This document shows, piece after piece, positions 612 to 34,864 of a DNA stretch of 64,000 nt; the stretch's first letter is position 1, and the number at the start of each line of letters is the position of its first letter. The notes under the pieces were generated by a model. The model ran no database searches, was not told the origin of the DNA, and saw only the letters and a list, made by a program, of their open reading frames with translations. A program made the position numbers and the translations under genes. Source of the stretch: a virus. The stretch covers positions 1-64,000 of the IMG/VR virus record IMGVR_UViG_3300025133_005699; one strand, 5' to 3'.

Positions 612-1268
612 TTAGCTCCAAATCTCGTAATTAGATATATCTTTGTATTTCCATGATCCTCCCGAATCATCATTGTTTTCTTTTGTCCTGTCAAATAGTT
701 CTATACCACGAGCAGCTTGCTCAGGAGGCATATACATGTTCCATCCCACTATCGTTGGCTCAGGCATTTCATCGTGGGGTACACGCCTGTCCCTTCCTTC
801 GTATTCAGCTAGCTTAAGCCAGTCAACGGCTTCCGCATCGTCTGTTAGTATCATTCCCCCTTTAGCGATTGGCAATATCTTTCTAATATGAAAAGATAGA
901 CATTGGTATGACCCCTTAACATACATATCTTTAGTGAATCTTGTAGCACCATCTATAATCGGATATGGGTCTAGCTGATAAGCTCCAGACCATTCAAGGT
1001 CAGTAAACTCGACTTCACACCCAGCATGTATAACGCTTTGAGGTACAGACAGGTATGTCTTTTTAGGAACTTTAACCTTGCCGGTTGCATTGAGATACTT
1101 GAGGCAAAGAAAAAGGCTATTGGTACAACTGTCTGTTGCAACAGCATACTTACTACCCGCATACTTGGCAACCTTGTGTTCAAACGCCTCCACAATATCC
1201 CAAGGGTCGTTAATGATGTATCCGTCCTTTTCTAGGGACGAGATAGTTTTTTTTAATGGACTATACAT
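612..1268 (-). CDS. Short DegT/DnrJ/EryC1-type aminotransferase
   Basis: This looks like a PLP-dependent sugar aminotransferase of the DegT/DnrJ/EryC1/StrS family, which converts a keto-sugar nucleotide to an amino sugar. Family landmarks are visible in order: the YAGSKYAVATDSCTNSL stretch (residues 36-52, normally SGTSAL), IDGATR (105-110, normally DAAHA), SFHIRK with the PLP lysine at K130 followed by GGMILTDD, and GWNMYMPPEQAA (175-186, normally GYNYRMSELQAA). At 218 residues it stops soon after that last motif; free-living relatives are near 370-400, so the C-terminal domain is missing. It starts one base after the stop of the upstream methyltransferase and is probably translationally coupled. 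Whether the short form is active cannot be told from sequence. Confidence 0.8.
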   Translation of the reverse strand: MYSPLKKTISSLEKDGYIINDPWDIVEAFEHKVAKYAGSKYAVATDSCTNSLFLCLKYLNATGKVKVPKKTYLSVPQSVIHAGCEVEFTDLEWSGAYQLDPYPIIDGATRFTKDMYVKGSYQCLSFHIRKILPIAKGGMILTDDAEAVDWLKLAEYEGRDRRVPHDEMPEPTIVGWNMYMPPEQAARGIELFDRTKENNDDSGGSWKYKDISNYEIWS

Positions 1269-1269
1269 T

Positions 1270-2007
1270 TTACCACTCTATAATAGGAGAGTCGTGGTAC
1301 CGACCTCCGTTGTATTTTTTGTCTATTTTTTCTGTGAATTCATCCATCGAATATGATCCGCCCCAAGAATCTATATCATGATACAATATGTATCCACTTT
1401 CACTATTTCGGACAAGAGGCAAATAGGTGTCCTGTAGGTCGTGGTGCAGTTCGCAAATGGCGTGATTACTAATAACCAAATCAAACTTAAAATCATACCA
1501 CGGTTGAACTTCGTCTGGGCAAATTTTGGTAATTTGTATTGCATGGTGGCTCAAGTATTTTTCTTGAAGCTCTAAAACTATTGGAATGTCTACCATGTAA
1601 ACTTCAGATATGTCAATCAAATCTGACAGTATTTTTATTTGTCCGCCATAACCACCACCTATTTCTAAAACTTTAATATTTTTTTTATTTTTAACCAATT
1701 CTTTTATTTGATGGGCTATGGCCATGTATTTCACTGTACCCGTACCTATAGACCCTTTGAATAGTTCGCTCTCCCGTTTTTCGCCACCACCTATCGTGTC
1801 ATTCTCTTTAAACTTTTCTAGTAGTTCATCGCTAATATTTTTGTCTCTAAGTAGGCCACAGCACCCATTAAACTCTGAGAGACTAACATGCTCTAATATG
1901 CCCCTATATCTCGGATCTGATTTAAACTCCCCTAGTCCGTCTTTAACAGCCTTTTGAACGGCCTCAAGATAGTCTCCATCACCCTCCCAGTTTTTTATAT
2001 AACTCAT
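1270..2007 (-). CDS. Putative sugar O-methyltransferase (class I SAM fold)
   Basis: A class I methyltransferase is indicated by the motif I sequence VLEIGGGYGGQ about 115 residues in, followed by an acidic strand end (YMVDIP) and DLVISNHAICEL as the motif IV region. The overall pattern matches proteins annotated as putative sugar O-methyltransferases. I place the start at 2007 (MSYIKNW) because GGAG lies nine bases upstream; an in-frame ATG at 2022 would add five residues and overlap the previous gene by 13 bases. The gene sits inside a leftward run of sugar-modifying enzymes, which supports a glycan or nucleotide-sugar substrate. The exact substrate is unknown. Confidence 0.7.
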   Translation of the reverse strand: MSYIKNWEGDGDYLEAVQKAVKDGLGEFKSDPRYRGILEHVSLSEFNGCCGLLRDKNISDELLEKFKENDTIGGGEKRESELFKGSIGTGTVKYMAIAHQIKELVKNKKNIKVLEIGGGYGGQIKILSDLIDISEVYMVDIPIVLELQEKYLSHHAIQITKICPDEVQPWYDFKFDLVISNHAICELHHDLQDTYLPLVRNSESGYILYHDIDSWGGSYSMDEFTEKIDKKYNGGRYHDSPIIEW

Positions 2008-2009
2008 TT

Positions 2010-2687
2010 TTATTTTCTCCATTCATATAATCTATAGTAATCTCCGAGCACAAACTTTCTGCTGGCCGTAGCGGAGCTTTTAGCCGCAGACTCATCGTAT
2101 TTATCATAAGGCAATACCCTGAAGTCCATACTAACCCTAGTCCTGCCTGTTTTGTTTTCTTTATTTCCGTGGATACATTTGTTGCCATAGAATATAGTGT
2201 AATCTCCCACTTCCATTTCTACTGGCTTAAAATCGCCTAGACCGGGAACTGATTCTAACCACATTGCATTAGAGTCCCACATTTTAGTGAGGGCGACCTG
2301 AAAGTTAATCTCCCAGTCTGGATGGTTGTGATTTTCATCAGAGTCGTGATGCCACTTGTGAATGGCCTGATCGTTTGGTATGTGCACCCTGAAGCTGGGG
2401 AAAGTCTGGTAGACGAATGACCCTTCGAACATTGGGGCAACCACGTTCTTAATAAAAGCCTCGTAGACCGCCTTTACATCGTCCCCTTTGTCAGAATTTA
2501 AGGCACCATAGAATGTAGAGTGAAAATCTGTCCTTGTTTCGTTGTCAAAGTTAAGCTTATCTGGCGGCATCAAGTCGCTTCTAAGCTCGTGTAAATTATG
2601 TAGCTCCCCTTGCGGAACGCCAAATATCTTTTCAACCTCTCCACAAAAGTTATAATTGTCAGTGTCATAAGTGCTGATTACGCTCAT
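2010..2687 (-). CDS. 2-oxoglutarate/Fe(II) oxygenase, StrG-like
   Basis: The 225-residue protein has the layout of non-haem Fe(II)/2-oxoglutarate oxygenases related to StrG of streptomycin biosynthesis. The iron ligands would be H113 and D115 (in KWHHDSD) and the distal H173 (in CIHGNKENKTGRTRVSMDFR), with an arginine at 182 or 184 suited to hold 2-oxoglutarate. FPSFRVHIP before the HxD and NAMWLESVPG after it also fit the family. Its ATG shares one base with the stop of the gene upstream, and GAGGAG gives a good ribosome-binding site. In this operon it probably hydroxylates or oxidises a sugar or sugar-linked substrate; that part is inference. Confidence 0.75.
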   Translation of the reverse strand: MSVISTYDTDNYNFCGEVEKIFGVPQGELHNLHELRSDLMPPDKLNFDNETRTDFHSTFYGALNSDKGDDVKAVYEAFIKNVVAPMFEGSFVYQTFPSFRVHIPNDQAIHKWHHDSDENHNHPDWEINFQVALTKMWDSNAMWLESVPGLGDFKPVEMEVGDYTIFYGNKCIHGNKENKTGRTRVSMDFRVLPYDKYDESAAKSSATASRKFVLGDYYRLYEWRK

Positions 2688-3262
2688 TATTTTCTCCTCG
2701 ATAGCATGTGACCCTCAATCCACGATGGATCAAAGTTTTTCATATTGTATTGGTCTTGAATATCTTTGAAGTGAAGGTTTTCAAAACCCATGTCGTGCAT
2801 AAGCTCTTCTGACTTGAACTTAGCAGAATTAAGATTATTTCTTCCCAAGAAGTATCCTCCCTTAATAATATTCTTAGCTGCCCATTTTTGCCCATAAATT
2901 TTTAGCTCTGGTGTTTTAGGAAAACTTCCGAGATCATTATGGCAGAAAGCTATTGGTATGTTGTCCACTTCGGAAAGCTCCATGCAATCCTTCTCGATTA
3001 CGCAGTCATGTCCGATTGGATTATGTAAGTCATAACCAATACATCTATCTCGGCCAAAGTGATCGCACAATAAATCAAGTGCAACACATCTGTTTGTGCC
3101 AAGCAGGACTATGTATCCGTCTTTAGGAATGTCCTGAAGCTGAAGGATAACTTTTTCAAGTATTTGATATCCGTAATAGTTTTTTCCGTAGTTGTCTACA
3201 TCCGAATGCTCTTCTGGGCTATCGTACCAGTATTCTTTACTGTAAAATTGTTTTTCTGACAT
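2687..3262 (-). CDS. Rossmann-like protein, possible methyltransferase
   Basis: The 191-residue protein carries a Rossmann-type strand and turn (IVLLGTNRCVALDLL, near residue 52) followed by an acidic strand end (CIGYDLHNP), which resembles SAM-dependent methyltransferase motifs I and II. The glycine-rich loop is weaker than in true methyltransferases (GTNRCVA rather than GxGxG), so activity is uncertain. It sits between the glycosyltransferase and the oxygenase with one- to two-base junctions, so it is part of the same transcript. Alternatives are a binding or scaffold protein for the sugar pathway. Confidence 0.45.
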   Translation of the reverse strand: MSEKQFYSKEYWYDSPEEHSDVDNYGKNYYGYQILEKVILQLQDIPKDGYIVLLGTNRCVALDLLCDHFGRDRCIGYDLHNPIGHDCVIEKDCMELSEVDNIPIAFCHNDLGSFPKTPELKIYGQKWAAKNIIKGGYFLGRNNLNSAKFKSEELMHDMGFENLHFKDIQDQYNMKNFDPSWIEGHMLSRRK

Positions 3263-3263
3263 T

Positions 3264-4148
3264 TTATCTTTCTTCTATGTCCTGTAGGTTTACAAGCTTC
3301 CACTCGTCTTTATATTGTTTTATATATTTATACCTTTTTTCGTCATCCACAAATAGAGATACTCCCGGACTTTCTATACTCCACTCGTTTACATGCTCCC
3401 CTCCTTCTGGAACCGGAACAAATATCTCAGAAGCGCTTGATAAAAACGCGGCAAACCAAGAAAAGGTACTTTGTGACATTATTATTTTGTTAAAAGATTT
3501 TATTGTATTAAAGTCTTCTATGGTGCTTCCAGCAACCAGCTCAGGGCTGTACTTGTCAAGGCTTTCCATGTATTTGTGAAACATTGGATGGTCTATTGTT
3601 TCTGGATCAGAGCAAATGTAAAGTCTGTCAAAAGACATAGACTCCAAAGCCTTATGGAAGTATTCTGTCGGCATTACATACGGGTTCTCTTCTAGGTCTC
3701 CCAGTATACAATCACCAAGCCTAAGATGTATAATGGCGTCGTGTTTAGTTTGACCAACATCTTTATACTCTGTTTTTAGCCACTGTCTAATCTGTTTTTT
3801 ATATGGTTTATAGTATTCATATTTTTGAAAGAACGCCATAGGGCCGATAGCTATCGCAGCATCCTTAATCTTTATCGCTTTGTCCATATTAAAGTCTGAG
3901 TCCGATCTAATCACAACATTTCCATAACCCTTTGCTATGGCCTCAACGAGACATCTGCTTGTCTGACTACTGAATTGTTGAACTTTACGTGGAGACATAC
4001 AGTCCCCATCAACCAACTCTCTCGTTCCAAGAAATCCGTTTATTGGCCTGTTGTCAAGGTAAAATCCCATGCGGCTGGCAAGGATTCTGCCAAGGCAATA
4101 TTGTAACAATGTGTTACCGAGACCTCCACTATAGTTTACAATAATCAT
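3264..4148 (-). CDS. Fucosyltransferase-like glycosyltransferase (GT11-type)
   Basis: The 294-residue protein matches the alpha-1,2-fucosyltransferase-like fold. It begins with SGGLGNTLLQYCLGRILA (family: GGLGNQLFQY), has the donor-binding IIHLRLGDCI near residue 141 (family: HxRRGD), YICSDPE, and a C-terminal SQSTFSWFAAFLS (family: STFSWWAAxL). It should transfer a deoxysugar, classically fucose from GDP-fucose, onto a glycan. A strong AAAGGAG site precedes the ATG at 4148. The link to the GDP-mannose 4,6-dehydratase encoded at 6171 is notable, since that enzyme makes the precursor of GDP-fucose. No GDP-fucose synthase (epimerase-reductase) is visible in the window. Confidence 0.75.
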   Translation of the reverse strand: MIIVNYSGGLGNTLLQYCLGRILASRMGFYLDNRPINGFLGTRELVDGDCMSPRKVQQFSSQTSRCLVEAIAKGYGNVVIRSDSDFNMDKAIKIKDAAIAIGPMAFFQKYEYYKPYKKQIRQWLKTEYKDVGQTKHDAIIHLRLGDCILGDLEENPYVMPTEYFHKALESMSFDRLYICSDPETIDHPMFHKYMESLDKYSPELVAGSTIEDFNTIKSFNKIIMSQSTFSWFAAFLSSASEIFVPVPEGGEHVNEWSIESPGVSLFVDDEKRYKYIKQYKDEWKLVNLQDIEER

Positions 4149-4489: not shown

Positions 4490-4502
4490 TTTATGTGTAT
4501 AT
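4490..4502 (+). promoter_or_regulatory. Late-type promoter element, variant TTTATGTGTATAT-like
   Basis: TTATGTGTATAT matches the recurring TTTTGTGTATA element with one change. It lies about 70 bases before the 4572 gene and just before a sigma-70-like promoter. Confidence 0.45.
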
Positions 4503-4571: not shown

Positions 4572-4871
4572 ATGCCAAGTAATAAAGATGAACCAAAAGA
4601 AATTGAATCCGAATTCGTAGCCAGAGCCTCTGAAGAGCTAGAAGATGCAGTAGCGGAAGAATTGGAAGTCGAAGACCCCTCTGTAGAAGAAGCGGCGGCG
4701 ATTATCGAAGAGCTTTCTGTCGAAATCCCGGTAGTTGAAGAAGCTGTTGAAGCTAAAGAAGTTTGTGAAGCCGAGTGTGAAGCTCAGTGTGAAGCTGAGT
4801 GTGAAGAAGAGGCTTCGGCTCAGGAGCCAGACTCCGATGATCCTCCGGTCCGTATGAGGGGGCCTCAATAG
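4572..4871 (+). CDS. Acidic protein with Cys-Glu repeat, 99 aa
   Basis: Not recognised. The protein is extremely rich in Glu and Ala and would be almost entirely helical. Residues 64-80 carry cysteines at 65, 69, 73 and 77, each four residues apart inside CEAE/CEAQ/CEAE/CEEE units, so on a helix they form a stripe that could bind metal or form disulfides. The DNA there is a 12-base tandem repeat, so the array may have arisen by slippage. It is the first gene of the rightward operon, with GGAG five bases before the ATG, and its stop directly abuts the TTG start of the sigma-like gene. A role in controlling that protein is conceivable but unsupported. Confidence 0.6.
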   Translation: MPSNKDEPKEIESEFVARASEELEDAVAEELEVEDPSVEEAAAIIEELSVEIPVVEEAVEAKEVCEAECEAQCEAECEEEASAQEPDSDDPPVRMRGPQ

Positions 4872-5375
4872 TTGAAAATACCTAGTAATATGTCAGAGCA
4901 AGAAGTTGTTGATATAATTACTAAGGTTAGCGAAAGACTGTCCAACAAATTCACGTTCGCATTCTATACTACTGAAGATATAAAGCAGGAAGCTTTTATT
5001 ATAGGTATGGAGGCGCTTGAAAGATATGATGAGAGTAAACCTTTAGAGAATTTCTTATTTGTCCACATGGCGAATAGATTAAAGAATTTTAAAAGAGATA
5101 ACTACTTTCGTCAGGACGAAGGTAAGGCAGAGAAGGTACAGAAGAGGAAAAAGAATCTTCTAGAGCCTGCTAACTTAGAAAATTTCAGCGTCGCTCGTGA
5201 AGAGGAGGACTTATTGTCCAAAATATCTAATTCCGAAATAATGGAGTTAGTCAAGAGGAGTATACCCTCAAATATGAGGTCGGACTATTTAAGATTGTGT
5301 GCCGGAGTCTCAGTATCCAAAAATAGGAAAGCAGAGATAGAGGCAGTAATCAGGGAGATAATTGAAGGCGAATGA
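4872..5375 (+). CDS. Sigma-70 family protein, candidate late sigma factor
   Basis: Residues 28-80 match sigma-70 region 2, the core-polymerase and -10 binding domain: TTEDIKQEAFIIGMEALERYD corresponds to the DLxQExxxGLxxAxxxFD signature, followed by an aromatic and basic helix (FLFVHMANRLKNFKRDNYFR, split here for clarity at residues 61-80). A basic linker follows, then about 45 C-terminal residues that resemble region 4 only in outline. At 167 residues it is the size of T4 gp55, a late sigma that reads a single -10-like box. The TTG at 4872 has a GAGGGGG ribosome-binding site nine bases upstream; an ATG at 4890 (MSEQEVV) is the alternative. It overlaps the next gene by four bases. I infer that it reads the recurring TTTTGTGTATA promoters of this window. 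Confidence 0.75.
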   Translation: MKIPSNMSEQEVVDIITKVSERLSNKFTFAFYTTEDIKQEAFIIGMEALERYDESKPLENFLFVHMANRLKNFKRDNYFRQDEGKAEKVQKRKKNLLEPANLENFSVAREEEDLLSKISNSEIMELVKRSIPSNMRSDYLRLCAGVSVSKNRKAEIEAVIREIIEGE

Positions 5376-6169
5376 AGCGAGGGCGTTTTTCAGTAGAAGA
5401 GACACAATATATCGAGCAAAATTGCGAGGCTCTTTCTCCAGAGGCCATAGCCGATCATCTTGATCGTAGTGCTTCGTCTATAACTGCGTGGATCGAAGAG
5501 AATGTAGGGTTCTCGGCGAAACAGAAAAAGGAAGTCGAGGCCCATCGGGAACTCAGACAGAAACCTTACTGGGGCGAACTATTAAAGCAGTTCTCTGAGT
5601 CAGAATTGGACTTATTTCAGTTCCACTTCAAAAAGATGTGGGCGCAGTTCAAAGATGACGTGTTTCACACAGAAGAAATCCAAATCGTGGATACCATCAA
5701 GCTCGAAATTCTAATGAATCGCATCTTAACGAGTCAAAATGAAAACCTGACAGACATTGAGGCGACGCAGCTCCTAATTCAGGTCGAGAAGGAACAAGAT
5801 ACTGCGGATCAAGACCGTGACTACATCTCGTCACTAGAGCGCCAAGTATCTATGGCTAGGGCGGCGCATGAGACGCTATCTAAGGATTATAAAGATCTCC
5901 AGACACGTAAAGCAATAATGCTTAAAGATCTTAAGGGAACGAGAGAGCAGCGTATTAAACAAATCGAAGACTCTAAGCTGACGTTTGCATCGCTGGTGAA
6001 ACAGATATCATCAGATCCTACTTTCAGAAGCCAGATAGGAATGGAAATGGAAAAAATGCGTTTGGCAACTGAAGCTGAGAAAGAGCGTTTATCACAGTAT
6101 ATTCAATATGAGGATGGACAGATAGATCAACCATTTCTGTCCGCAGAAACCACTAAAGGAGGAAAATAA
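5372..6169 (+). CDS. HTH and coiled-coil protein, candidate terminase small subunit
   Basis: The first 50 residues form a Myb/homeodomain-like helix-turn-helix (RFSVEETQYIEQN, then LSPEAIADHLDRSASSITAWI). Residues about 155-205 form a long coiled coil, and the rest is helical. A DNA-binding N-terminus plus an oligomerising helical region, and a place a few genes upstream of the large terminase, fit a terminase small subunit that recognises the packaging site. The similarity is structural in kind, not a specific family match, and a transcription factor is the main alternative. The start overlaps the stop of the sigma-like gene (ATGA). Confidence 0.5.
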   Translation: MKRGRFSVEETQYIEQNCEALSPEAIADHLDRSASSITAWIEENVGFSAKQKKEVEAHRELRQKPYWGELLKQFSESELDLFQFHFKKMWAQFKDDVFHTEEIQIVDTIKLEILMNRILTSQNENLTDIEATQLLIQVEKEQDTADQDRDYISSLERQVSMARAAHETLSKDYKDLQTRKAIMLKDLKGTREQRIKQIEDSKLTFASLVKQISSDPTFRSQIGMEMEKMRLATEAEKERLSQYIQYEDGQIDQPFLSAETTKGGK

Positions 6170-6170
6170 T

Positions 6171-7337
6171 ATGAAGACCGCAATTATATTTGGGGTGACA
6201 GGCCAAGACGGTAGTTATTTAGCCGACTTGCTACTTTCTAAAAAATATAAGGTAGTAGGAGTCGCTAGACGTAGTAGCGTGGATACGACGGAGAGAATCG
6301 GCGAGCAATTAAAGCATCGCAACTTCTTACTCGTCGAGGGAGATATTACCGACGGATTTTGTGTTGCAGACATTATTAATAAACATGAGCCGGATGAAGT
6401 ATATAATCTTGCCGCACAGTCGCACGTAGGTACCTCATTTAAGCAGCCGACACTAACTTGGGACGTAACTGCCGCTGGATGTTTAAACATCTTAGAAGCG
6501 ATCAGAGCGTGTCCTAGAAGGGAACAAATTAAGTTTTATCAAGCGTCTTCGAGTGAAATGTTTGGTAAAAATTACTCAGTCTCCGGAACTGAACCAAGTG
6601 TGGGGGATACTCTCCTTGGGGTTGGCTCTACAATAAAATATCAAGACGAAGACACACCTTTCATTCCTCAGTCACCTTATGCTATCGCCAAACTAGCTGC
6701 GCACCACCTTGTGAGGAACTATAGAGATAGCTATGAGATATTTGGGTGTTGTGGTATATTGTTTAATCATGAGAGCGAGCGACGAGGAGAAAACTTCGTA
6801 ACCAGAAAGATTACTAAGTGGATAGCTAGATTCTTGGCTTGGGAGAAAAAAAATTCCACCGAAATACCATATGACTGTAGATTTGGCATTGGGGAAGAGG
6901 GCATTAGTATGCCAAGAGAACGACAGTTCATGGATATGATAGCAACACCTCGCTTTCCTAAACTCAGGCTTGGAAATTTAGATGCACAGAGAGATTGGGG
7001 TCACGCGAAAGATTATGTGCGGGCTATGTGGCTTATGCTACAAGAAGATATTCCTGAAGACTATGTTGTAGCGACAGGAAAGACTCATAGCGTTAGAGAT
7101 TTCTTAGATATTGCTTTTGAGAGAGCTGGAATAAGTGGCTGGGAAGATTTCGTATTTATTGATCCAGAATTCTTCAGACCGGCAGAGGTTGATTATCTAT
7201 TAGGTATTCCAGACAAAGCAAAGAACCAGCTTGGCTGGGAGCCTGAAATTTCGTTTGAGCAATTAGTACACAATATGATTGATGGAGATTTAGATGAGGA
7301 ACTACTCAGACCCAAGCTACAAGAAGTTCAGGACTGA
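6171..7337 (+). CDS. gmd: GDP-mannose 4,6-dehydratase
   Basis: This enzyme makes GDP-4-keto-6-deoxy-mannose from GDP-mannose, the branch point to GDP-fucose, GDP-rhamnose and GDP-perosamine. It is a clear extended short-chain dehydrogenase: NADP loop GVTGQDGSYLADLLL (residues 8-22), NLAAQSHVGTSF (79-90), YQASSSEMFG (123-132), the catalytic YxxxK as Y170 and K174, then GILFNHESERRGENFVTRKI (195-214) and LGNLDAQRDWGHAKDYV (267-283). Two stretches are not typical: about 25 residues after EMFG (133-158) and about 35 residues at 226-262, both where the family has short loops. A strong AAAGGAGG site lies eight bases upstream. It is unusual in lying between packaging genes. It may feed the glycosyltransferase at 3264 and the aminotransferase at 612. 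Confidence 0.93.
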   Translation: MKTAIIFGVTGQDGSYLADLLLSKKYKVVGVARRSSVDTTERIGEQLKHRNFLLVEGDITDGFCVADIINKHEPDEVYNLAAQSHVGTSFKQPTLTWDVTAAGCLNILEAIRACPRREQIKFYQASSSEMFGKNYSVSGTEPSVGDTLLGVGSTIKYQDEDTPFIPQSPYAIAKLAAHHLVRNYRDSYEIFGCCGILFNHESERRGENFVTRKITKWIARFLAWEKKNSTEIPYDCRFGIGEEGISMPRERQFMDMIATPRFPKLRLGNLDAQRDWGHAKDYVRAMWLMLQEDIPEDYVVATGKTHSVRDFLDIAFERAGISGWEDFVFIDPEFFRPAEVDYLLGIPDKAKNQLGWEPEISFEQLVHNMIDGDLDEELLRPKLQEVQD

Positions 7338-8228: not shown

Positions 8229-8744
8229 GTGGCAAAGAAAATACCAAACTATACCGTCATTAAAGACACCAGAGAGCAGCGTGGCTGGATTTTTAACAAA
8301 TCCGACCGATGTGACGGTATGCGTGTCGAAACGCTTAAGACGGGCGACTACACGCTCAAGGGCTTCGAGGAAATGGTTTGTATGGAGCGAAAGTTTAGTG
8401 TGGAAGAAATAGCCACCAATTTAGGCAAAAAGAAAAAGGCTTTTGGAGAAGAGATGAAAAGAATGAGGGAATTTCCCTTTAAGTTCATTATCTGTGAGTT
8501 TACTTTGGATGATTTGGTTAATTATCCGAACTCTATCTTTTCTGAGGAGATGAAGAAAGCAAGACCGGAATTTACAAAAAGTAAAATAGCAGAGAGAAAA
8601 GTCACAGGGAAGTACTTATTAAAAGCCCTTATGGAATACCAGATATGGAATGGAGTACATATTTTGTTCTGTGGAGATAAGACAAATGGGTTCTATGTCG
8701 CTAGCAGTATTTTTAAGAGATTAAACGAGATGTTTCATGAGTAG
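8229..8744 (+). CDS. ERCC4-type nuclease
   Basis: The 171-residue protein matches the XPF/ERCC4 nuclease domain. It has DTREQRGWIF near the start (first catalytic Asp), LKTGDYTLKGFEEMVCMERK (the GDY and ERK catalytic motifs), and a long helical rest. There is no helicase or HhH domain, so it is a stand-alone nuclease as found in other phages, likely cutting branched or flapped DNA. The start is GTG, with GGAG eleven bases upstream. Its place between the HNH nuclease and terminase suggests trimming of replication or packaging intermediates. It overlaps the ClpP-like gene by eight bases. Confidence 0.8.
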   Translation: MAKKIPNYTVIKDTREQRGWIFNKSDRCDGMRVETLKTGDYTLKGFEEMVCMERKFSVEEIATNLGKKKKAFGEEMKRMREFPFKFIICEFTLDDLVNYPNSIFSEEMKKARPEFTKSKIAERKVTGKYLLKALMEYQIWNGVHILFCGDKTNGFYVASSIFKRLNEMFHE

Positions 8745-9384
8745 ACCTACTAATTATTCAGCACTATCAAATTGGCATGACTATGGGGTTTTGTCTAGCA
8801 CGCGAGAAATATTCCTTTCTCCAGCAGATGATGATGGACTGTCTTCTAAAGACGCAGTAACATTTATCAAGAACCTAGTAATGCTTGAATCTTTAAGTTC
8901 TAACCCTGTTGTTATACATCAATACAACGTGGGTGGAGACCAGAGCGCCGGACTAGCTATCTATGATGCGATTATAGCCAGTAAGTGCAAGTTTTTGTTT
9001 ATCTGCTATGGTTCCGCATCTTCGATGGGGAGTATAATCCCACAGGCCGTCTTTGGAAAAGGTATCAGGGCGACACACGCTAATTGTGAGTGGGTTATCC
9101 ACGAAGGGGCTTGTGAGCTTAGCGGAACGACAAAACAGTTTATATCTAACGCAGAGGCTCTTAAACGCAGTAAAAATGCAATGTATGATATATATACTAA
9201 GTGCTGCAAGAAGGGCTCGGCTTTTAAGGGTAAGAAACCCGAAGAGATTAAAGCTATACTTAAGCGTAGACTGAATGTAAAAGAAGACTGGATACTTAGC
9301 GGGGAGCAGGCGGTAGAGTATGGGTTCGCCGATGTTTTAATTAGAGGGAAAAACTCTGTAGAAACCCTATTGAAAAAAATATGA
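8737..9384 (+). CDS. ClpP-like serine protease
   Basis: The protein has the ClpP/crotonase-type protease fold: the nucleophile sequence YGSASSMGSIIPQA (catalytic serine S96), the histidine in WVIHEGA (H122), and a C-terminal LSGEQAVEYGFADVLI that matches the region following the third catalytic residue in ClpP. NVGGDQSAGLAIYDAI is the family's oxyanion and substrate-strand region. Phages often use ClpP-type enzymes as head-maturation proteases; here a separate protease-scaffold gene lies at 13595, so its target is unclear. The length (215) equals cellular ClpP. It overlaps the terminase start by four bases (ATGA). Confidence 0.85.
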   Translation: MSRPTNYSALSNWHDYGVLSSTREIFLSPADDDGLSSKDAVTFIKNLVMLESLSSNPVVIHQYNVGGDQSAGLAIYDAIIASKCKFLFICYGSASSMGSIIPQAVFGKGIRATHANCEWVIHEGACELSGTTKQFISNAEALKRSKNAMYDIYTKCCKKGSAFKGKKPEEIKAILKRRLNVKEDWILSGEQAVEYGFADVLIRGKNSVETLLKKI

Positions 9385-11381
9385 GCGAAAAAAACATAAT
9401 AAAGACTATAGAGGATGCTTGGCTAGGCGTAGACCTAAGGGAAGAAGATTTATTCAACCCTATGGATTTTCTTTTTTATGATAACGATCCAGAAAAGATG
9501 CTAGAGAGAACAGCATGGCTCATGATGAGACCGGAGTATTTCTCTTTTGTTTGTAAATATGTTCTTAATATTGAGCTGTCCCCTTTTCAGTCTCTCATAC
9601 TCCAAGAAGTTTGGAACAAGAAATTCCCAATGCTTATCGGTAGTCGTGGTATGGGTAAATCATTCCTACTCTCTGTGTATCCTTTGCTAAGAGCCTTGTT
9701 TATGCCTAGACGAAAAATCATTGTCGTCGGTGCGGCCTTTAGGCAGTCTAAAGTTCTATTTGAGTATATGGACACCATTTGGAAGAACGCACCCGTCCTG
9801 AGAGATCTGTGCGGCTCTAACAGCGGTCCCAGAAGAGACGTTGACCGATGTGTTATGCATATTGGAGATAGCACTATAACCTGTTTACCTCTGGGTGATG
9901 GAAGCAAGATTCGTGGTCAGCGTGCGAACGATATTATTGCAGACGAATTTGCGTCTATTCCACGAGAGATTTTTGAAAACGTTGTTGCTGGTTTTGCTGC
10001 TGTAGCATCCTCCCCTATTGAGAAGGTCAAAGCTAAGGCTAGACAGAAAAAAGCGGTTGAGCTTGGGGTAGAATACAAAGAGAAGGAGACAGGACTGGCT
10101 GACGATAAGTCAAACCAAATTATCTTATCTGGTACCGCTTATTATGATTTCAATCACTTTGCTGAATATTGGAAGAGATATAGAGACATCATAAATAGTC
10201 AGGGCGATAAAGCTAAACTCAGGGAGATCTTTGGAGACGATGCTCCAGAGGATTTTGCTTGGGAAGAGTATTCTGTAATTCGTATGCCCGTAACAACTAT
10301 TCCCGCAGGCTTTATGGATGAGGGTCAGGTAGCAAGAGCGAGAGCAACAATTCACTCCGGTATCTTCCAGATGGAATATGGGGCGTGTTTTACTACAGAT
10401 AGTCAGGGATTCTTTAAAAGGTCTTTAATTGAGGGGTGCATTGCCTCTCCAGAAAACAGCATAAAGATAAACGGCGAGGATATTAATTTTGAATCGCAGC
10501 TAAAGGGAGATCCAAACAAACAATATATTTTTGGCGTTGACCCTGCATCAGAAGTTGATAACTTTAGCATTGTTGTATTAGAGGTAAACAAAGACCATAG
10601 ACGTATTGTTCATTGCTGGACTACAAACAGGAGTCAACATAGAGAGAAGCTCAAGTCTCATCTTGTTGAGGAGGATGATTTTTATTCATACTGCGCCAGA
10701 AAGATTAGAAACCTTATGAGGGTATTCCCTTGCGTGGAAATAGCTCTTGATGCTCAGGGTGGTGGTATAGCCGTCATGGAAGCCCTGCACGACAAAGACA
10801 AGGTTCAGGAGGGCGAGGTCAAGATATGGCCGGTCATAGATTACGATAAGCCCAAAGATACAGATGACGAACCCGGATTACACATATTGCGGATGTGTCA
10901 GTTTGCAAAATACGACTGGCTCGCAGAAGCTAATCATGGACTCAGAAAAGACTTTGAAGATAAGCTCGTTTTATTCCCAGACTTCGACGCCGTGAGTCTC
11001 GGTCTTTCTGCTGAAGATGACGGAATACACGGAAGAGTGTATGATACGCTAGAGGACTGTGTTATGGAGATAGAGGAGCTTAAGAATGAGCTATCTATGA
11101 TTATAATGACACAAACAGGACTAGGTAGAGAAAAGTGGGATACTCCTGAAGTAAAGGTAGCAGCAGGTAGAAAAAGGCGACTAAGAAAAGACCGTTACTC
11201 TTCTTTGATTATGGCCAACATGTCTGCCAGACAGATGTTTGTAGAGAGAACAGTACGGACTTATGACCACTATGGCGGGTTTGCCGAAAAGTCGGCAGAA
11301 AAGAACGATAATGACAAGGACGATGGCCCCTTGTATCAAGGCCCTGCATGGTTTACAGAAAATATGGGCGATATATACTAA
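9381..11381 (+). CDS. Terminase large subunit
   Basis: This is the DNA-packaging motor ATPase and headful or cos nuclease. Walker A is GSRGMGKS (residues 87-94), Walker B is IIADE (185-189), and the coupling motif is LSGTAYYDFN (249-258). The RNase H-like nuclease domain follows, with D387 in FGVDPAS and D457 in IALDAQGGG as metal ligands. The 666-residue length is within the usual range. A 35-residue Lys-rich helical insert (about 214-245) sits between the ATPase motifs. It is the last gene of a tightly overlapped packaging run and is followed by a late-type promoter for the portal. Confidence 0.95.
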   Translation: MSEKNIIKTIEDAWLGVDLREEDLFNPMDFLFYDNDPEKMLERTAWLMMRPEYFSFVCKYVLNIELSPFQSLILQEVWNKKFPMLIGSRGMGKSFLLSVYPLLRALFMPRRKIIVVGAAFRQSKVLFEYMDTIWKNAPVLRDLCGSNSGPRRDVDRCVMHIGDSTITCLPLGDGSKIRGQRANDIIADEFASIPREIFENVVAGFAAVASSPIEKVKAKARQKKAVELGVEYKEKETGLADDKSNQIILSGTAYYDFNHFAEYWKRYRDIINSQGDKAKLREIFGDDAPEDFAWEEYSVIRMPVTTIPAGFMDEGQVARARATIHSGIFQMEYGACFTTDSQGFFKRSLIEGCIASPENSIKINGEDINFESQLKGDPNKQYIFGVDPASEVDNFSIVVLEVNKDHRRIVHCWTTNRSQHREKLKSHLVEEDDFYSYCARKIRNLMRVFPCVEIALDAQGGGIAVMEALHDKDKVQEGEVKIWPVIDYDKPKDTDDEPGLHILRMCQFAKYDWLAEANHGLRKDFEDKLVLFPDFDAVSLGLSAEDDGIHGRVYDTLEDCVMEIEELKNELSMIIMTQTGLGREKWDTPEVKVAAGRKRRLRKDRYSSLIMANMSARQMFVERTVRTYDHYGGFAEKSAEKNDNDKDDGPLYQGPAWFTENMGDIY

Positions 11382-11382
11382 T

Positions 11383-11393
11383 ACTGTGTATAT
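11383..11393 (+). promoter_or_regulatory. Late-type promoter element before portal
   Basis: ACTGTGTATAT lies in the gap between terminase and portal, 48 bases before the portal ATG. It matches the core TGTGTATA of the recurring element but has a weaker T-tract. Confidence 0.55.
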
Positions 11394-11440
11394 CTAAATG
11401 TAATAGAATTATCAATACTATTGTTTAAGGAACAATACAA

Positions 11441-13543
11441 ATGGCAGACGACCTTTATTTAACATGGGGAAACGACCAAGAGCGCAGCAAGGCCTATGAA
11501 GCATCTTCTGACGCCGTTCATGCTTATGACGGCATACAAAAGTCCTTTGCTTACGACAATAGAACGTTCTTAGATATTGAATCTTCTCGCTCAGTTCGTC
11601 CTAGTTTTCATAAAGGTGATTATACTGCCTTTCGTCCCGGCGAAGCCGTTCCAACACATCAAAAACGCATCATAAAGGCATGCATGCAAGCATATGATAA
11701 GGTTGGCATTATCAGAAATGTTATCGATCTGATGGGGGATTTTGCCTCTCAGGGGATTACTCTTGTCCATCCAAACAAGACAATTGAAAGATTCTATAGA
11801 AAATGGTTCGAGCAAATTGGTGGCTTAGATAGGTCAGAGAGATTCTTAAATTATCTTTACAGATGTGGAAACGTTACGGTAAAGAGAAACACTGCTAGAA
11901 TAAGCAAGAAAAAAGAATCTGAACTCAAGAGAAGTACTGCTGCCGCAGATATGAAGATTGAAAATATAGACGTTACCAAGAGAGAGGTTCCTTGGAAGTA
12001 TGATTTTCTCAACCCTTTAGCTGTCGATGTTAAAAATGTTGATGCGTCGATGTTTACCGGAGATCTCGAATATGTACTAAAAGTATCAAAGACAACCGTG
12101 AATTCTTTGATGATGTCTGGTAGCGGAAAGCGACCGAGCTTACCTACCGAGATGATGAAAAGGTTTGCACAGGGCGAAAGAGAAATTCCGCTAGATAAAG
12201 ACAAAGTTAGAATGTTCCATTACAAAAAAGATGACTGGAACCTTTGGGCAAACCCAATGATTTATGCGATCCTTGATGATATTATTATGCTGGAAAAAAT
12301 GAAGCTCGCAGACCTAGCGGCTCTTGATGGGGCTATATCTAACGTTAGGTTGTGGAGAATTGGCGATTTAGACCATAAGATTATACCGACCAAAGCGGCT
12401 ATTAATAAACTTAGAGACATCCTTGCTAGTAACGTCGGTGGCGGAACCATGGATTTAGTATGGGGTCCTGAGATTGACTTTAAAGAAAGCAGTACACAGG
12501 TATATAAATTTTTAGGTTCAGAAAAATACCAGCCAGTATTGACAAGCGTATATGCGGGCCTTGGAATTCCTCCAACCCTAACTGGCGCGGCCTCTGGTGG
12601 TGGGTATACCAATAACTTTGTCAGTCTGAAAACCTTAGTAGAAAGACTCGAATATGGCCGAGAGATATTAAAAGGGTTTTGGCAGCACGAAATTAAGCTT
12701 GTCCAGAAAGCTATGGGTTTTAGATTTCCCGCAGAACTTCACTTCGACTCAATTATATTGTCAGACGAAGCAGCGCAGAAACAATTACTAGTTCAATTAG
12801 CAGACAGAGACATTATATCTCATGAAACGCTTCTCGAAAGATTTAGAGAGTTACCAGCCATTGAAAAGATTAGAGTACGTAGAGAAGAACGGACTAGAGT
12901 TAAGGATGCACTCGCGCCCAAGAAGGCTGGCCCATATCACAACCCACAACACAAAGAAGATATTGCCAAGATTGCGCTTACCAAAGACGTTTTGGATAAT
13001 GATATATATCTTGAGAATTTAGGTCTTCCTACATCTGAAATTGATCAGATAAATAAAATAGAGGTTGATGATGCCCCAAAACCAGTAGTAGAGGACACAA
13101 ATCCTGCATCTCCCGACCCAAAGGGTGGCAGGCCCAATAATTCTAGAGATCAACAGAAGAGAAAAGAAAAGCGAGTTCTACCTCGCAGCAAGGGCGATGT
13201 ATCTACTACGCTATGGGCTTATGAAGCACAGAAAGATATTTCTGAGTTAGTTATGCCTATGGCTCTAGCTCACTTCAAAAAGAAGAACGCTCGAAGCTTA
13301 ACAAAATCAGAGTTTGACCAGCTAGAATATCTCAAGCTCTGTATCTTAACCGGCGTCAAGCCATATATGGATATTGATGCGGATGTAATAAAAGCTATCA
13401 TTGACTCTGATACAAAACCATCAGATGGTTTTAAGAATGAAATAGAAATCTCTATTGCTGACTTTTCACAAACACAGAACAGAAAACCTAGTGTTGATGA
13501 AATGCGCTATATATACGCCTCTACTTTTGCTAGTTTTACCTAA
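11441..13543 (+). CDS. Portal protein
   Basis: The 700-residue protein follows the large terminase and shows portal features: an N-terminal region with a tryptophan- and arginine-rich wing (IIRNVIDLMGDFASQG), a central stem helix region (IYAILDDIIMLEKMKLADLAALDGAI), and GIPPTLTGAASGGGYTNN, the glycine-rich tunnel-loop region seen in aquatic-phage portals, then a long helix (LVERLEYGREILKGFW). It should form the dodecameric ring at the capsid vertex. The C-terminal 170 residues are charged and include a basic patch (RDQQKRKEKRVLPRSKG), and may line the head interior. The leader after the promoter is 48 bases with AAGGAAC as ribosome-binding site. Confidence 0.88.
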   Translation: MADDLYLTWGNDQERSKAYEASSDAVHAYDGIQKSFAYDNRTFLDIESSRSVRPSFHKGDYTAFRPGEAVPTHQKRIIKACMQAYDKVGIIRNVIDLMGDFASQGITLVHPNKTIERFYRKWFEQIGGLDRSERFLNYLYRCGNVTVKRNTARISKKKESELKRSTAAADMKIENIDVTKREVPWKYDFLNPLAVDVKNVDASMFTGDLEYVLKVSKTTVNSLMMSGSGKRPSLPTEMMKRFAQGEREIPLDKDKVRMFHYKKDDWNLWANPMIYAILDDIIMLEKMKLADLAALDGAISNVRLWRIGDLDHKIIPTKAAINKLRDILASNVGGGTMDLVWGPEIDFKESSTQVYKFLGSEKYQPVLTSVYAGLGIPPTLTGAASGGGYTNNFVSLKTLVERLEYGREILKGFWQHEIKLVQKAMGFRFPAELHFDSIILSDEAAQKQLLVQLADRDIISHETLLERFRELPAIEKIRVRREERTRVKDALAPKKAGPYHNPQHKEDIAKIALTKDVLDNDIYLENLGLPTSEIDQINKIEVDDAPKPVVEDTNPASPDPKGGRPNNSRDQQKRKEKRVLPRSKGDVSTTLWAYEAQKDISELVMPMALAHFKKKNARSLTKSEFDQLEYLKLCILTGVKPYMDIDADVIKAIIDSDTKPSDGFKNEIEISIADFSQTQNRKPSVDEMRYIYASTFASFT

Positions 13544-13561: not shown

Positions 13562-13574
13562 TTTTTTGTGTATT
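13562..13574 (+). promoter_or_regulatory. Late-type promoter element before protease-scaffold
   Basis: TTTTTTGTGTATT is a near-perfect match to the recurring element. It lies 20 bases before the ATG at 13595, the shortest distance of the set, leaving room only for the TGAGGAG ribosome-binding site. Confidence 0.65.
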
Positions 13575-16667: not shown

Positions 16668-16680
16668 TTTTTGTGTATAC
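16668..16680 (+). promoter_or_regulatory. Late-type promoter element before 16720 gene
   Basis: TTTTTGTGTATAC follows directly after the capsid-gene terminator and lies 40 bases before the next ATG. The terminator-promoter arrangement supports its role as a real start of a new transcript. Confidence 0.75.
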
Positions 16681-25891: not shown

Positions 25892-25905
25892 CATTGTGTA
25901 TATAA
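25892..25905 (+). promoter_or_regulatory. Late-type promoter element before 25948 gene
   Basis: CATTGTGTATATAA lies 43 bases before the ATG of the next virion gene and matches the recurring element with a short T-tract. It separates the cassette from the tail-spike genes. Confidence 0.65.
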
Positions 25906-27912: not shown

Positions 27913-27924
27913 TTTTGTGTATAG
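27913..27924 (+). promoter_or_regulatory. Late-type promoter element before connector genes
   Basis: TTTTGTGTATAG is an exact match to the core consensus and lies 38 bases before the ATG at 27962. It starts the connector and neck group. Confidence 0.72.
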
Positions 27925-31164: not shown

Positions 31165-31180
31165 TTTTTTGTGTATATAT
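31165..31180 (+). promoter_or_regulatory. Late-type promoter element before tail tube
   Basis: TTTTTTGTGTATATAT is one of the best matches to the element. It lies 64 bases before the tail-tube ATG, leaving room for a structured leader. Confidence 0.75.
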
Positions 31181-34786: not shown

Positions 34787-34799
34787 TTTTGTGTATATA
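34786..34799 (+). promoter_or_regulatory. Late-type promoter element before tape measure
   Basis: AATTTTGTGTATATA is an excellent match to the element, straddling the end of the upstream gene. It lies 93 bases before the tape-measure ATG, the longest leader of the set, and that leader contains a terminator-like hairpin. Confidence 0.75.
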
Positions 34800-34814
34800 A
34801 ACGTGGACAGTCTT

Positions 34815-34864
34815 AAAGGGGTAGCAAACGATACATATATGTATTTCGAGCTGCCCCTTTTTTT
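34815..34864 (+). terminator. Terminator-like hairpin in tape-measure leader
   Basis: AAAGGGGTAGC (34815-34825) pairs with GCTGCCCCTTT (34850-34860) over 11 bp with one G-U, followed by TTTT. The loop contains ACATATATGT (34833-34842). It lies downstream of the promoter and upstream of the gene, so it should act as an attenuator or antitermination target rather than as an operon end. Confidence 0.75.

Follow-up and report, generated by a model that had tools for sequence, protein, structure and literature searches.

Which promoters would a phage protein serve that is recognizable as a σ factor only in region 2? The question is raised by a 167-amino-acid protein encoded in the DNA analyzed here, hereafter the window, which comprises bases 1–64,000 of a 105,810-base virus record (G000). 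A sequence-only reading had described the protein as a σ70 region 2 with a vestige of region 4, had likened it to T4 gp55, and had paired it with late promoters consisting of a single box. We examined the protein, the box and their relatives computationally; the features are collected in Table 1.

Domain architecture of the 167-residue protein

The coordinates of the gene stand because its relatives share the start position, mostly with an ATG codon. The Pfam profile Sigma70_r2 matches 35 of 35 aligned relatives (best E 1.3e-8). The window protein itself matches with E=7.2e-5 in hmmscan, 1.1 bits below the gathering score, and with 24.4 bits, above the gathering score, in a genome search. Compared with the PDB, a wider profile of the family retrieved a solved σ factor (E 1.4e-4) and CnrH (7e-4). 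In an AlphaFold model based on 35 sequences (mean pLDDT 75.8), residues 9–77 form three confident helices with region-2 pLDDT values of 85–95, followed by a disordered linker (79–112) and a helical C-terminal part. Nearly all of the top Foldseek matches of this model in the PDB are σ factors, none of them at E<0.001. The relatives share the invariant core F..Y...DI.QEAF..........YD...PLENF......NRL....R. Profiles, model and fold search agree with the earlier recognition of region 2, and judged by sequence and predicted structure the product of this ORF is a genuine σ70 region-2 protein. We assign residues ∼9–77 to region 2, ∼78–112 to the disordered linker and ∼114–166 to a three-helix C-terminal domain.

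The protein had also been credited with a vestige of region 4. Modeled alone, the C-terminal 66 residues form three helices (mean pLDDT 83). The Pfam profile Sigma70_r4 matches neither the window σ factor nor its aligned relatives, and a comparison of the C-terminal model with the PDB gave no σ4 match. Because of these two results, we dropped the assignment to region 4.

Table 1. Features of the locus and of the remaining record. Positions up to 64,000 lie in the window; higher positions refer to record G000.
Feature	Position	Strand	Remarks
Late box GTGTATA	4495–4501	+	before σ operon; predicted start 4509
Acidic ORF	4572–4871	+	99 aa; ahead of σ gene, cotranscribed; group A only
Putative late σ factor ORF	4872–5375	+	167 aa; TTG start
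D5-like partner gene	5372–6169	+	265 aa; PHROG 323 "transcriptional regulator, D5-like"
ERCC4 nuclease, prohead protease, terminase large subunit (TerL)	8229–11381	+	same block, downstream of σ gene
Late box GTGTATA	11386–11392	+	after TerL, before 700-aa gene 11441–13543; predicted start 11400
Direct repeats	11400–11440		upstream of post-terminase gene
Late box variant GTGTATT	13568–13574	+	predicted start 13582
Late box GTGTATA	16673–16679	+	just past terminator closing capsid operon; predicted start 16687
Late box GTGTATA	25896–25902	+	predicted start 25910
Late box GTGTATA	27917–27923	+	predicted start 27931
Late box GTGTATA	31171–31177	+	predicted start 31185
Late box GTGTATA	34791–34797	+	before 3555-aa gene; predicted start 34805
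Terminator-like hairpin	34805–34860		−22.4 kcal/mol
Glycosyltransferase-like and sugar-nucleotide genes	612–4148, 6171–7337		large block, continued below
Glycosyltransferase-like and sugar-nucleotide genes	69190–85243	−	same block
Second σ factor	85233–85712	−	159 aa; region 2 (Pfam 3e-10) and clear region-4-like C-terminus
DnaE-like polymerase	86087–90126	−	series of neighboring ORFs; an exonuclease-like ORF and a small one intervene
Three DUF1501 genes	101974–105809	−	E down to 4e-114

A conserved box upstream of the virion genes

The sequence TTTTGTGTATA occurs four times exactly and seven times with at most one mismatch in the window, compared with 2.0 expected, always on the plus strand and at a frequency found in 0 of 100 shuffles. 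In the form GTGTAT(A/T), the box stands ahead of eight virion transcription units on their coding strand. Behind the GTGTATT variant, we place the start of the gene at ATG 13595 because the mechanically predicted GTG start lies inside the box. A literature search for the box TGTGTATA together with phage late promoters found no report of it.

In the relatives, exact copies of the box lie on the σ-coding strand, with the exception of one site in G006, and a control with the reversed pattern gave zero hits. We also ranked intergenic 7-mers upstream of late-strand genes within each group of relatives without presupposing any motif. TGTGTAT or GTGTATA came first in group A (24 vs. 0.64), in group B (23 vs. 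0.63) and in the single genome G014 (7 vs. 0.17), while GTGTATA was second in group C to the overlapping GGTGTAT, with five occurrences each (5 vs. 0.12). The first-ranked words were TGTGTAT in G013 (6 vs. 0.21) and TTGTGTA in G012 (6 vs. 0.25). Applied to the late genes of T4 as a positive control, the same procedure returned TATAAAT at the second rank. On the early strand, too, the intergenic regions of G005, G006 and G009 contain some copies of GTGTATA, and G009 has few late boxes. The GTGTAT preceding the post-terminase gene in group B was discarded as independent evidence, being partly forced by the conserved end of the terminase gene, GAT GTG TAT TAA (DVY stop).

Additional elements were observed near individual boxes. 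Between the box at 34791 and the 3555-aa gene lies a strong terminator-like hairpin; this arrangement, kept in G001–G003, hints at attenuation or at a short RNA. Upstream of the post-terminase gene, at least two direct repeats like CAATNCNATT, ∼11 nt apart and widely conserved, could function in packaging, at the RNA level or as an operator.

Predicted start site and the missing –35 region

A T-purine step is present at positions +13/+14 of the box in 31 of 39 non-redundant boxes, against a background of 17% (p 2e-17); the next best position reaches 15 of the 39. The step was first recognized in one set of contigs; among sites of other contigs, held out for testing, 15 of 19 carry it at the same fixed distance (p 4e-9). 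At the 31/39 and 15/19 sites, the predicted initiator lies 8 nt past the last A of GTGTATA, and the YR test, when applied to T4 TATAAATA, has its maximum at the corresponding position. We read the T-purine step as the transcriptional start, which would place GTGTATA at about –14 to –8.

Upstream of the box, a T-tract alone is informative. With spacers of 15–19 bp, the best TTGACA match at the late boxes scores 3.03/6 compared with 3.00 in shuffled sequences, whereas 119 early-strand TATAAT sites of the same genomes score 4.18 vs. 2.98, and 52 of these sites have at least 5/6 TTGACA positions vs. 3.7 expected. The late-box and TTGACA/TATAAT promoter classes are clearly distinct. The earlier description of the late promoters as lacking a –35 region is confirmed by this test, and their architecture agrees with a σ factor in which no region 4 is detected.

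Early promoters of the type TTGACA-N17-TATAAT in G001, G003, G004, G005, G007 and G008 contain GCCGATA within the spacer and an AAAG element ∼21 nt upstream of GCCGATA. GCCGATA resembles the –10 element of σ28 promoters, or it may be an operator.

Since the box holds a TATA preceded by TG, and thus resembles a shifted extended –10 element, it might instead be a promoter of the host primary σ factor that depends on a phage activator, for example the D5-like partner, leaving the small σ factor with some other job. Nine of the 39 sites indeed read GTGTATAAT, and a report on T5 offers a precedent, late genes read by the host σ70 holoenzyme with phage factors (PMC7472727). We nevertheless regard this explanation as unlikely. 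The invariant GTG abuts TATA on its upstream side and is shifted by one base relative to TGNTATAAT, and no A-T is conserved after TATA; the box therefore differs from the extended –10 form of host σ70, in which TGN directly precedes TATAAT. Moreover, the ordinary host-type promoters of the same genomes are clearly TTGACA/TATAAT and belong to the early strand, and the phage σ factor is conserved throughout.

Candidate readers of the box

We consider it probable that the 167-aa protein is a late σ factor of the phage that acts through region 2 on the host core RNA polymerase and reads one –10-type box. The argument is built on sequence features, namely region 2, enrichment and strand bias of the box, the missing –35 region, the fixed initiator and co-conservation. 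The proposed pairing of box and σ factor draws on this co-conservation and on the matching absences of region 4 and –35: the box co-occurs with the σ factor across relatives ∼39–100% identical in σ sequence and marks mainly the virion genes of one strand. A search with PF04542 found a single region-2 protein, the orthologue of the window σ factor, in G005 (149 kb), G006 (167 kb) and G014 (159 kb), all of which have the box. The records may be incomplete, however, and their missing parts could encode another reader. A multisubunit RNA polymerase is encoded in none of the phage records searched; such an enzyme was ruled out as reader of the box, and the host enzyme is therefore presumably used.

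That a different phage σ factor reads the box is decidedly improbable. One such protein, of 159 aa, is encoded by G000, G002 and G003, and additional region-2 proteins occur in other relatives. Its region 4, however, predicts a –35 element, of which none is seen at the late boxes, and its gene adjoins SSB and DnaE-like genes in a replication block. Among the records tested, orthologues occur in G002 and G003 only; it is missing from G005, G006 and G014, which carry the box and whose sole σ factor is of the window type. Because of its absence from the other records tested, the 159-aa protein is not the common reader.

For the 167-aa protein, we infer core binding, box reading, timing and the role of the partner as follows. 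Region 2 would bind the host core RNA polymerase and direct it to promoters of one –10-type box, (T)TTTGTGTATA, whose span relative to the T-purine start is suggested by the initiator signal and by comparison with T4. Since no region 4 is detectable in the protein, contact with a –35 region would be unnecessary. The host main σ factor would transcribe the early genes, which lie mostly on the opposite strand, from TTGACA-N17-TATAAT promoters. The late box of the σ operon would amplify late expression of the σ factor, and the adjacent D5-like protein may act as a co-regulator. Most likely, the σ factor switches the host RNA polymerase to the late genes. The functional idea of the sequence-only reading, a late σ factor paired with a single box, is thus well supported by the co-conserved box, the fixed distance to the start and the missing –35; its assignment to the gp55 family is not, as detailed below.

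The σ operon and its neighborhood

The σ gene heads a block of virion genes, which includes capsid genes further downstream. A σ70 scan ahead of the σ operon revealed no promoter above chance. The operon is preceded by its own late box, and late expression of the σ factor is therefore probably self-amplifying. The partner gene overlaps the σ gene by 4 bp and adjoins it in nearly every relative. Its product consists of an N-terminal HTH-like stretch followed by long helices, and of the 28 members aligned, 22 hit PHROG 323 (best 8.7e-8); it may be a co-regulator. Glycosyltransferase-like and sugar-nucleotide genes form a large block in the record, and the DnaE-like polymerase appears to be divided among several ORFs in a row (Table 1).

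Distribution and host

In IMG/VR, a first scan yielded 57 relatives of the σ factor, and a pattern derived from the profile raised this to at least 377 stretches encoding such relatives. By tblastn against 50,697 annotated phages, neither the σ factor nor the D5-like partner found a match.

The far end of the record carries three genes of the DUF1501 type, which is typical of Planctomycetota. In addition, positions 10001–14503 of L122, a sequence from the chromosome of Limnoglobus roseus, a planctomycete, encode a distant relative of the σ factor and two homologues from the capsid region; this locus is probably a prophage. Because of these two observations, a planctomycete is a likely host, and the uncultivated phages carrying the σ factor probably infect Planctomycetota.

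Comparison with known σ factors

T4 late promoters are built from one TATA-type box, which lies roughly a helical turn ahead of the start, and have no –35 region (PMC2988020, PMC7892883). The resemblance to gp55 is a general one: a region-2-only σ factor of about the same size and single-box late promoters lacking a –35. The shared promoter logic and the similar box position would suit a true orthologue of gp55 that acts together with gp33- and sliding-clamp-like proteins, and single comparisons with region 2 of gp55 gave a BLASTP E of 3e-5 and an hhalign E of ∼1e-5. We still judge orthology to be very improbable. PHROG 234, which represents gp55, is matched at E<1 by only 9 of 44 relatives (best 0.0093) and not at all by the window σ factor at E up to 10, whereas 43 of 44 match PHROG 1740; the hits to PHROG 234 are thus few and weak. 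The C-termini read ..EIIEGE or ..ELIDEEG, in place of ..LDFLYE in gp55, and lack the hydrophobic-acidic clamp epitope. Phage sliding clamps were sought with PF02768 in 10 records and with PF02916 in 8, none with a match, whereas T4 itself is recovered by the gp45 search with PF02916 (the records may be incomplete). Comparison of TerL places the σ-bearing phage in a non-T4 lineage. On these grounds, orthology counts as refuted in part, and membership in the T4 gp55 family was rejected. T4 further differs in its use of gp33 and gp45 and in the late box itself, TATAAATA vs. GTGTATA, a difference already noted in the earlier reading.

Bacterial ECF σ factors include the nearest solved structures, among them CnrH, SigW and σE. 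They have a region 4 and two-part promoters, however, and neither was found here.

Region-2-only phage σ factors with single-box late promoters are known elsewhere; the lineage described here is new and widespread. With T4 and phiEco32, it would bring to three the apparent lineages that combine a phage σ factor without region 4 with single-box late promoters. The analysis provides a predicted map of late promoters and start sites for a phage group that is widespread and of which the phage collection searched contains no close isolate, and the conserved partner gene offers a route to testing how the σ factor copes without –35 contact and phage clamp. A bolder reading, which we hold to be less likely than not, is that these phages, a large and wholly uncultivated lineage, possess a late system of their own and independent of those of T4 and phiEco32. 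In it, a region-2-only σ factor with a new helical C-terminal domain in place of region 4 and an obligately linked D5-like protein would together read GTGTATA without a phage clamp.

The nearest precedent is gp36 of phiEco32, a phage ECF σ factor without region-4 homology that uses the single element tAATGTAtA, with the start 6–8 bp downstream (PMC8948821). PHROG 1740, which holds gp36 (1.9e-45), is matched by the 43 relatives at E<1 with a best value of 2.1e-8; the window σ factor alone matches it weakly (0.0058). Direct homology to gp36 was rejected as not significant (hhalign E 0.021, BLASTP E 0.25). In phiEco32, too, middle and late promoters are single-element and the late cluster runs opposite to the early genes; the boxes share TGTATA, and the start predicted here, 8 nt past the box, falls within the 6–8 bp range. 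In contrast to phiEco32, the box here is TTTTGTGTATA, the σ gene heads the late block and is accompanied by a D5-like partner, the C-terminal domain consists of three helices, and the genomes are far larger and unrelated. Most likely, we are dealing with the same logic as in T4 and phiEco32, realized in an unrelated lineage.
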